From: Dermabacteraceae bacterium TAE3-ERU5
GTDB lineage: Bacteria > Actinomycetota > Actinomycetes > Actinomycetales > Dermabacteraceae
DNA length: 64,000 bases
Direction: 5' to 3'
Assembly (NCBI GenBank): GCA_019218375.1
Contig: JAHUUK010000008.1
Coordinates: 1 to 64,000 of the forward strand
Shown piece by piece: positions 39,120 through 40,142 of this stretch; the first letter of the stretch is position 1; each line of letters begins with the position of its first letter. Position numbers and translations under genes: made by a program. The notes under the pieces are model-generated. The model searched no databases. It saw nothing but the letters and a program-made list of their open reading frames with translations, and was not told the origin of the DNA.

Positions 39120-40142
39120 ATGGTTTACATCGATCCGAACAAAATCCTGGAAAGTTCTGTCACCCCGCCGCATTTCCGCCACGATCCCGCCGCTCGCCTG
39201 CGCCCGATCAACTGGAACCAGGTGCAGGACGAAAAGGACCTTGAGGTGTGGAACCGCCTCACGGCTAACTTCTGGCTGCCGGAAAAGGTGCCGCTCTCGA
39301 ACGACATTCCGGCCTGGGGCAAGATGACCCCGGAGGAACAGACCCTCACCATGCGCGTGTTCACCGGCCTGACCATGCTGGATACGCTGCAGGCCAGCGT
39401 CGGCGAGATCGCCCAGATTCAGGACGCCCGCACCGATCACGAAGAGGCGGTTTATACGAATATCGCCTTCATGCAGGCGGTACACGCGCGCTCCTATTCT
39501 TCCGTGTTCTCTACGCTGACCAGCACGAAAGAGATTAACGAGGCCTACGCCTGGGCCGTCGGCAACGATCTGTTGCAGGAGCGCGCCAAGAAGGTGCTGG
39601 TGCACTACTACGGTGACGATCCGCTCAAGCGCAAGGTTTCTTCCACCCTGCTGTCGTCCCTGCTGCTGTACGCCGGCTTCTACCTGCCGCTGCACTTCTC
39701 GGTGCATGCCACCCTGACGAACACGGCCGACATGATCCGCCTGATCCTGCGCGACAAGGCCGTGCACGGCTACTACTCGGGCTACAAGTACCAGCGGGGC
39801 CTGGAAACCCACAGCCGGGCCGAACAGGAAGAGATGCACGAGTTCACCTTCAACCTGTTGGAGGAACTGTACGAGCTGGAGCTGAAGTATTCCGGTGAAC
39901 TGTACGAACCCCTCGGCCTGATGGACGACGTGGCTGTGTTCGTGCGCTACAACGCGAACAAGGCACTAATGAACCTTGGCTATTCGGCCCGCTTCACCCC
40001 GGAAGAAACCGAGGTGAACCCGGAGATCCTGGCCGCGCTCTCCCCCGGCGCGGACGAGAACCACGATTTCTTCTCCGGCTCCGGTTCCTCCTACGTGATG
40101 GGCAAGGGCGAGGACACGACCGACGCGGACTGGGATTTCTAG
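39120..40142 (+). CDS. nrdF: Metal-free class Ie ribonucleotide reductase radical subunit (NrdF2-like)
   Basis: Ferritin-fold beta subunit, 340 residues. Aligned to NrdF of enterobacteria with an offset of 21, Asp88, His122, Tyr126 and His216 are kept at the ligand/radical positions (Asp67, His101, Tyr105, His195). The three Glu ligands Glu98, Glu158 and Glu192 are replaced by Gln119 (codon [13 protein letters not shown]), Ser179 ([11 protein letters not shown]) and Lys213 ([13 protein letters not shown]). This QSK triplet is the signature of class Ie, in which NrdI-dependent oxidation turns the Tyr into a stable DOPA radical and no Fe or Mn is bound. Tyr126 is the expected DOPA site. Confidence 0.93.

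Follow-up and report, generated by a model that had tools for sequence, protein, structure and literature searches.

The 64-kb stretch of DNA analyzed here (the window) carries an nrdF gene for a ribonucleotide reductase (RNR) radical subunit that the initial annotation had read as a metal-free enzyme, which raises the question of whether this subunit belongs to the metal-free class Ie and, if so, when the organism would use it. The reading frame at 39120-40142 on the forward strand is free of stop codons and encodes 340 amino acids, and its translation placed every residue and codon named in that annotation where it had been put:

39120..40142 (+), nrdF, class Ie (QSK) radical subunit R2e, assigned from residues, PDB match and tree
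39381 (+), GAT codon of Asp88, from translation and alignment
39474..39476 (+), CAG codon of Gln119, replacing a metal-ligand Glu, from translation and alignment
39483 (+), CAC codon of His122, from translation and alignment
39495..39497 (+), TAT codon of Tyr126, the prospective DOPA residue, equivalent to Tyr150 of the Gardnerella protein
39654..39656 (+), TCG codon of Ser179, replacing a metal-ligand Glu, from translation and alignment
39756..39758 (+), AAG codon of Lys213, replacing a metal-ligand Glu, equivalent to Lys237 of the Gardnerella protein
39765 (+), CAC codon of His216, from translation and alignment

Alignment with the class Ib NrdF of the same genome showed that Asp88, His122, Tyr126 and His216 are common to the two proteins, whereas the class Ib protein has Glu at all three positions that are Gln, Ser and Lys (QSK) here, confirming the loss of the three glutamate ligands. 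In a phmmer search of the PDB, 8rag and 8rah ranked first (519 bits over residues 8-340, E = 5e-155 for 8rag). The N terminus is extended: the 8rag match begins at residue 8, while those of the class Ib chains near the top of the list begin at 25 to 28. Among 138 tblastn matches to NrdF (E 1e-20), a count that includes overlapping loci more than once, 77 read D-Q-H-Y-S-K-H, 60 read D-E-H-Y-E-E-H and one is a decayed copy; because the first pattern recurs in 77 matches, the QSK triplet is not a chance occurrence. In a tree of 74 rows, drawn with a midpoint root for display only, 53 QSK sequences were split from 21 with three glutamates (EEE) by a single branch with 100/100 support.

Residues, the alignment with 8RAG/8RAH, placement in the QSK clade, the extended N terminus and the adjoining nrdI and nrdE genes all agree with the earlier assignment to class Ie R2e of the QSK type. 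The window NrdF is a further member of QSK class Ie, a kind already characterized in print (PMC11846895, 2025). For homologous R2 proteins, PMC11846895 and PMC8463856 describe a metal-free subunit in which Tyr is converted to DOPA and the radical resides on DOPA, and by analogy we infer that the radical subunit encoded here is metal free and uses DOPA chemistry.

Two observations concern the distribution of QSK genes. A decayed QSK-like nrdF adjoins nrdI and an mntA fragment in a related genome (L149:6325-7269, G009 C3); it has His aligned with Tyr126, lacks segments, and is accompanied in that genome by another, intact QSK copy. NrdF(QSK) is also identical or nearly identical across Dermabacteraceae, Micrococcaceae and a third family (L011, L131 and L132 versus L014 and L134), pointing to recent horizontal transfer; no record of a phage or plasmid copy at 80% identity or more was found in either collection searched.

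We then considered the genes that accompany nrdF and the other RNRs of the genome, which comprises 1.92 Mb in 11 contigs and is 96% complete. The operon has the order nrdI-nrdE-nrdF, with the nrdE start overlapping the nrdI end:

36321..36875 (+), nrdI, flavodoxin-like activase, NCBIfam TIGR00333 at 159.5 bits (cut-off 74.65) and Pfam PF07972; a TTG at 36300 is also a possible start
36872..39022 (+), nrdE, catalytic R1 subunit, TIGR04170 at 1180 bits (cut-off 750)

No nrdH was found in the window operon, the intergenic gaps being too small. Across the genome we counted two R2, two R1 and two nrdI genes, one nrdD (class III) and one copy of nrdR (C1:61445). The second R2 (G000:C7:178668) has EEE ligands and is class Ib. 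The presence of class Ib and class III genes rules out the QSK enzyme as the sole RNR, a status described for more than 60 QSK species, and class Ie is therefore an alternative and not the only route. The earlier claim that DNA precursors are produced here by an RNR with a metal-free radical subunit was too strong, since an EEE class Ib R2, a second nrdI and nrdE, and nrdD are also encoded. This narrows the physiological role: class Ie is a second system, probably an inducible one. Elsewhere in the window, two similar-looking proteins with signal-like N termini and no Pfam match are encoded convergently at 41801-42499 (+) and 42656-43384 (-), adjoining a gene (40237-41322) whose product combines a CAP domain with three S-layer homology repeats.

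If class Ie is one of several systems, its promoter becomes the place to look for the conditions of its use. De novo palindromic EM at width 18 on 34 non-redundant QSK promoters, drawn from 50 with a detected nrdI, yielded the palindrome AGTTCGGCATGCCGAACT with a log-likelihood of 154. A repeat at this width reached 152.8, compared with 25.7 to 30.3 in six base-shuffled promoter sets, and motif discovery at widths 14 and 16 yielded the NrdR box instead. As in the window promoter, sites of the AGTTCGGCATGCCGAACT type (score of at least 9) occurred in 25 of the 34 non-redundant promoters. In 18 of these 25, a second copy lay 22 or 23 bp away, any other spacing being seen at most twice. The palindrome was absent from the remaining 9 of the 34 (four Streptomyces, three Bifidobacteriaceae, one Acidimicrobiia and one Corynebacterium). 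The nrdI promoter of the window contains the following elements, in which NrdR-box-like sites were assigned by the NrdR consensus:

36184..36201 (+), candidate MntR operator 1, TGTTTGTCATGCCGTAGT, from de novo palindrome discovery and matrix
36207..36224 (+), candidate MntR operator 2, AATTCGGCGTGTCGTAGC, from matrix, 23 bp from operator 1
36248..36261 (+), NrdR-box-like site 1, TACTAGAACTTGTG
36280..36293 (+), NrdR-box-like site 2, CACAAGATATAGCC, 32 bp from site 1

Operators 1 and 2 scored 19.1 and 14.8, respectively, against a matrix that excluded the window site. When the sister species was excluded too, the scores were 18.8 and 14.9, and the two were the best and second-best sites across the 64-kb window. 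In the sister species, operator 1 differs at three central bases and operator 2 is identical at 17 of 18 bases. NrdR-box-like pairs 32 bp apart also precede the genome's own class Ib operon and nrdD, while no palindrome scoring at least 10 was found in the class Ib promoter.

Two other promoters attracted our attention. The gap between nrdE and nrdD on C7 (L125:6667-6684, in the window genome) contains a palindrome-like site scoring 13.3, flanked by two NrdR-box-like sites, with a counterpart in the sister species scoring 11.3 (L130:8139), and class III nrdD may be under the same manganese control. Three of the four Streptomyces QSK loci (L012, L021 and L022) have a perfect 14-bp palindrome, TTAGGTATACCTAA, about 445 to 475 bp upstream of the nrdI match and, by eye, just above a NrdR-box-like pair. 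Its half-sites resemble the DtxR/IdeR iron box, and the class Ie genes of Streptomyces may be wired to another metal repressor.

A gene for a plausible ligand of the tandem operator lies upstream of nrdI:

35299..35967 (+), MntR-like DtxR-family metalloregulator P0002, 222 aa, Pfam PF01325, PF02742 and PF04023 above cut-off
35994..36022 (+), terminator-like hairpin with T-rich tail, 3' of the regulator gene, from a consensus scan

P0002 has a helix-turn-helix domain, a metal-binding/dimerization domain and a FeoA domain. Its top NCBIfam match was the MntR model, at 153 bits and below the curated 350, and the DtxR model gave 90 bits. Its top PDB match, near full length at 222 bits, was 5zr4, titled "metal-dependent transcriptional regulator", the MntR of Mycobacterium tuberculosis; the two proteins share an HDEAE-LEHAVSD stretch. 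P0002 reads HDEAENLEH where the IdeR-like paralogue of the same genome reads EEACRWEH, with Glu in place of Cys at the position of DtxR/IdeR Cys102. The genome has three DtxR-family genes, the third adjoining mntABC on C5. A matrix scan found no palindrome scoring 7.5 or more in the promoter of the P0002 gene itself. The hairpin after the regulator gene suggests that nrdI therefore probably has its own promoter, although such hairpins are weak evidence on their own, with 4 found in the region against 5.8 expected in shuffles. Transcription of the regulator and nrdI as a single unit was rejected on the hairpin between them and the conserved promoter elements, which again is weak evidence.

To follow the palindrome beyond nrd genes, we constructed a matrix from 14 QSK promoters, none of them shared with mntA or PEP carboxykinase (PEPCK), and ran it on 20 loci of the window-type MntR from 19 genomes. 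At the preset score of 11, sites were found in 11 of 16 mntA-like promoters, 6 of 20 mntR-like promoters and 4 of 40 class Ib nrd promoters, compared with 115 of 1,454 control windows (350-bp windows of class Ib loci). At a score of 15, which was set after seeing the results, the mntA-like count remained at 11 of 16, with 5 of 20 mntR-like and 10 of 20 held-out QSK promoters; none of the 40 class Ib promoters and 15 of the 1,454 controls had a site. The five mntR-like sites at this score were all at a distance of 41 bp from the match. The 16 mntA-like matches include some with no more than 28 to 33% identity to the query, which may handle other metals. Of the 11 positive mntA-like promoters, six come from genomes in which no QSK gene was found (L175-L178, L193 and L194); NrdF reads EEE in five of these, and in the sixth, a partial copy, Glu is retained at 213. 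The palindrome therefore accompanies metal uptake and MntR of the window type whether or not class Ie is present.

Homologues of P0002 adjoin mntABC-like genes under the same operator in relatives, but not in the window genome. Here the mntABC promoter on C5 has no palindrome site scoring 7.5 or more; a paralogous regulator gene is adjacent to it, and by eye the promoter contains a different box, TGAGGCTCGCCTTA. For the window genome, this palindrome-free mntABC is where the argument is weakest. Searching for the pattern with three mismatches allowed gave too much noise to delimit a regulon and was set aside: the window genome gave 11 sites against 11 with a reversed control, and eight other genomes gave 11 to 46 against 8 to 26. 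Three pattern matches in other genomes and two matrix matches in stretches of the window genome were intragenic.

We next compared gene neighborhoods, within about 6 kb, for 80 relatives kept from the genome scan (38 QSK and 42 EEE) plus the window, giving 39 QSK loci, many loci in the set being cut by contig ends. A MntR-like regulator was near 11 of 39 QSK loci, a MntA-like binding protein near 8 and a GTP-PEP carboxykinase near 7, each against 0 of 42 EEE loci. At least one of the three was near 20 of 39 QSK and 0 of 42 class Ib loci (Fisher 1.5e-8, a value that overstates significance because the loci are related). In several genomes of the Brachybacterium group, mntR, mnt transporter genes and nrdI-nrdF(QSK) occur together, with mntA divergent from nrdI. 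The idea that the QSK operon travels within an iron-uptake island found no support, the genes that recur beside it being of the manganese type. In seven QSK loci, including L003:1176-3104, a GTP-dependent PEPCK gene is divergent from nrdI(QSK) with a common promoter region. Near nrdF or mntA, 8 of 39 QSK loci (for example L008:6941-7294) encode a small protein, about 100 aa long and without a match in Pfam or NCBIfam, that was found in 0 of 42 class Ib loci and is a possible accessory factor. In PMC11846895, neighborhoods comprise only RNR genes at most 300 nt apart on the same strand, and the words "DtxR" and "regulator" are absent from its main text. Among open-license PMC papers, we found none linking QSK class Ie with MntR or an FMN reductase.

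The association extends from loci to genomes. Among 118 related genomes, the window-type MntR (at least 56% identity) was present in 17 of 18 QSK genomes versus 13 of 100 others; of these 13, nine have a full EEE NrdF and one a partial copy that keeps Glu at position 213; in another a distant R2 was all that was found, and the other two gave no match to NrdF. We also searched 30 QSK genomes by locus, 27 of which had a scored promoter. A regulator at 56% identity or more was found in 13 of 16 motif-bearing and 0 of 11 motif-less genomes (Fisher 3.4e-5, again overstated because the loci are related). At 50% or more, the figures were 16 of 16 and 3 of 11 (L028, L033 and L034), but 41 of 100 non-QSK relatives also qualified, which makes the test at this level less telling than its figures suggest. 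For L032, L035 and L040, where no nrdI was found upstream, whole-locus scans gave best sites of 12.4, 14.4 and none of at least 11, respectively.

A further gene tracks the QSK triplet. A member of the NADPH-FMN-reductase family lies near 18 of 39 QSK loci versus 1 of 42 EEE loci, and at 71% identity or more the family (PF03358) was found in 8 of 18 QSK genomes versus 1 of 100 other relatives; in the single non-QSK genome with the gene (G080), NrdF reads EEE. In Actinotignum it precedes nrdF, and in L032 no further listed gene separates the two. The window genome has it unlinked to the QSK operon, at C8:50025, and no palindrome scoring at least 11 was found in that stretch. The flavodoxin reductase of Bacillus cereus belongs to a different protein family from the product of this gene. 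With that reductase, the B. cereus class Ib enzyme gave a higher yield of radical (Lofstad work, cited in PMC8463856). Because the authors of PMC11846895 state that they lacked a protocol for replenishing reduced NrdI, the FMN-reductase-family protein is a natural candidate NrdI reductase.

Together, these observations make it probable, as judged from sequence, that the QSK class Ie operon is repressed by manganese-loaded MntR and substitutes for the manganese-dependent class Ib enzyme when manganese is scarce. Tyr126 would be hydroxylated to DOPA, and the DOPA oxidized to the radical, by an oxidant that derives from NrdI and is probably superoxide, and Lys213 would occupy the metal position, giving a radical subunit with no need for Mn or Fe, as in the characterized homologue. 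When manganese is plentiful, MntR, most likely P0002 (35299-35967), would repress the operon; when it is scarce, the operon would be released and class Ie would stand in for the class Ib R2. A second control, common to class Ib and class III, would come from NrdR. It had also been suggested that the enzyme serves life under metal starvation by a host; here it is the metal-starvation half that gains support, from operator evidence pointing to manganese.

The same promoter evidence could be read with a class Ie enzyme whose tandem palindrome is bound by another regulator, either a DtxR paralogue or an unrelated repressor, manganese not being the signal. The genome's three DtxR-family genes leave room for this, as do its palindrome-free mntABC and three QSK genomes that have a 51 to 55% identical regulator but no motif. 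However, the palindrome precedes 11 of 16 mntA-like and 5 of 20 mntR-like genes around P0002-like regulators, and MntR control of nrdI-nrdF2 is in print for Corynebacterium diphtheriae (PMC13001254), and we consider a different regulator unlikely.

Two further readings concern the protein itself, and to both we give very little credence. NrdF might be a degenerate, inactive relic beside the class Ib enzyme, given that a class Ib set is present and that the QSK-like copy in L149 is truly decayed; yet the window reading frame is intact and 99% identical to that of the sister species, it has its own nrdI and nrdE, a conserved promoter and the same triplet as the rest of its clade, and activity of a QSK homologue is in print (PMC11846895). 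Alternatively, Gln, Ser, Lys, Asp and two His could form an unusual ligand set that still uses Mn or Fe, a view to which the retention of Asp88 and both His residues lends something, but the Gardnerella QSK R2 contained only traces of Mn and Fe and has Lys in the Mn1 site (same source).

A wider reading, which we offer tentatively as a possibility somewhat short of even chances, is that a manganese-sparing module has spread horizontally within Actinomycetota, with QSK class Ie as its DNA-precursor arm. One MntR, acting at tandem AGTTCGGCATGCCGAACT sites 22 to 23 bp apart, would switch on the metal-free reductase together with mntABC and, in some genera, GTP-PEPCK, and the QSK-tracking FMN-reductase-family protein would be a dedicated NrdI reductase, the component missing from in vitro work on QSK class Ie. 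Streptococci (through MtsR), and perhaps Streptomyces (through TTAGGTATACCTAA), would have the enzyme wired to other metal repressors.

Among known systems, the QSK RNR of Gardnerella vaginalis (Bifidobacterium vaginale; 8RAG/8RAH) is closest to the window enzyme, sharing the triplet, the Asp/His/Tyr/His residues, the N-terminal extension, the nrdI-nrdE-nrdF order and the clade; the window NrdF is 65% identical to the homologue of G. vaginalis KA00225. By comparison, identity to the class Ib NrdF encoded elsewhere in the genome, a protein of the same family but of the EEE clade, is 62 to 63%. PMC11846895 reports 275 QSK genes in 266 genomes, all Actinomycetota, and for the QSK R2 it describes DOPA formation, trace metal only and activity that requires both DOPA and reduced NrdI. 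No radical was left in the Gardnerella R2e after purification, and in its structure Lys237 fills the Mn1 position and an extended N terminus is described (PMC11846895). Regulation and context differ: the window operon is without nrdH, the three Gardnerella promoters lack the palindrome, their genomes have no match to the window regulator, and Gardnerella is described as having no other class I RNR (PMC11846895), whereas the window genome also has class Ib.

For regulation, the nearest parallel is C. diphtheriae, for which PMC13001254 lists nrdI-nrdF2 (DIP1923-DIP1924) and mntABCD as MntR regulated, after Peng et al. 2021, and reports that DtxR did not bind the nrdI-nrdF2 promoter. Like the window operon, this is a second NrdF with nrdI in an actinomycete phylum member under MntR, shown by experiment there and predicted here; the listing is without nrdE, whereas the window operon includes it. 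An nrdI-nrdF layout is reported for 104 QSK gene stretches (PMC11846895). Should DIP1924 be a QSK protein, one species already provides a demonstrated case of MntR control over a QSK enzyme, and the present analysis adds the breadth, the tandem operator and the FMN-reductase link. The manganese-regulon case also offers a reading of the MntR-controlled nrdI-nrdF2 of C. diphtheriae.

In Streptococcus pyogenes the corresponding repressor is MtsR, a DtxR-family protein. It represses the class Ie operon nrdF.2IE.2 and not nrdHEF (PMC6593403), and streptococcal class Ie is described as repressed by raised intracellular Fe and Mn (PMC8463856). The likeness to the window lies in a metal-free class Ie enzyme beside class Ib, with class Ie under a metal-responsive repressor; the S. 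pyogenes system differs in having VPK and not QSK (PMC11846895), the nrdFIE order, another phylum and an iron-responsive MtsR. A 2021 review stated that the conditions of cellular class Ie use are not understood (PMC8463856). Placement of QSK class Ie in the manganese regulon of many actinobacterial genera would be a testable answer to when class Ie is used: if MntR acts as proposed, a shortage of manganese would trigger, within one cell, a swap from the metal enzyme to its metal-free twin.
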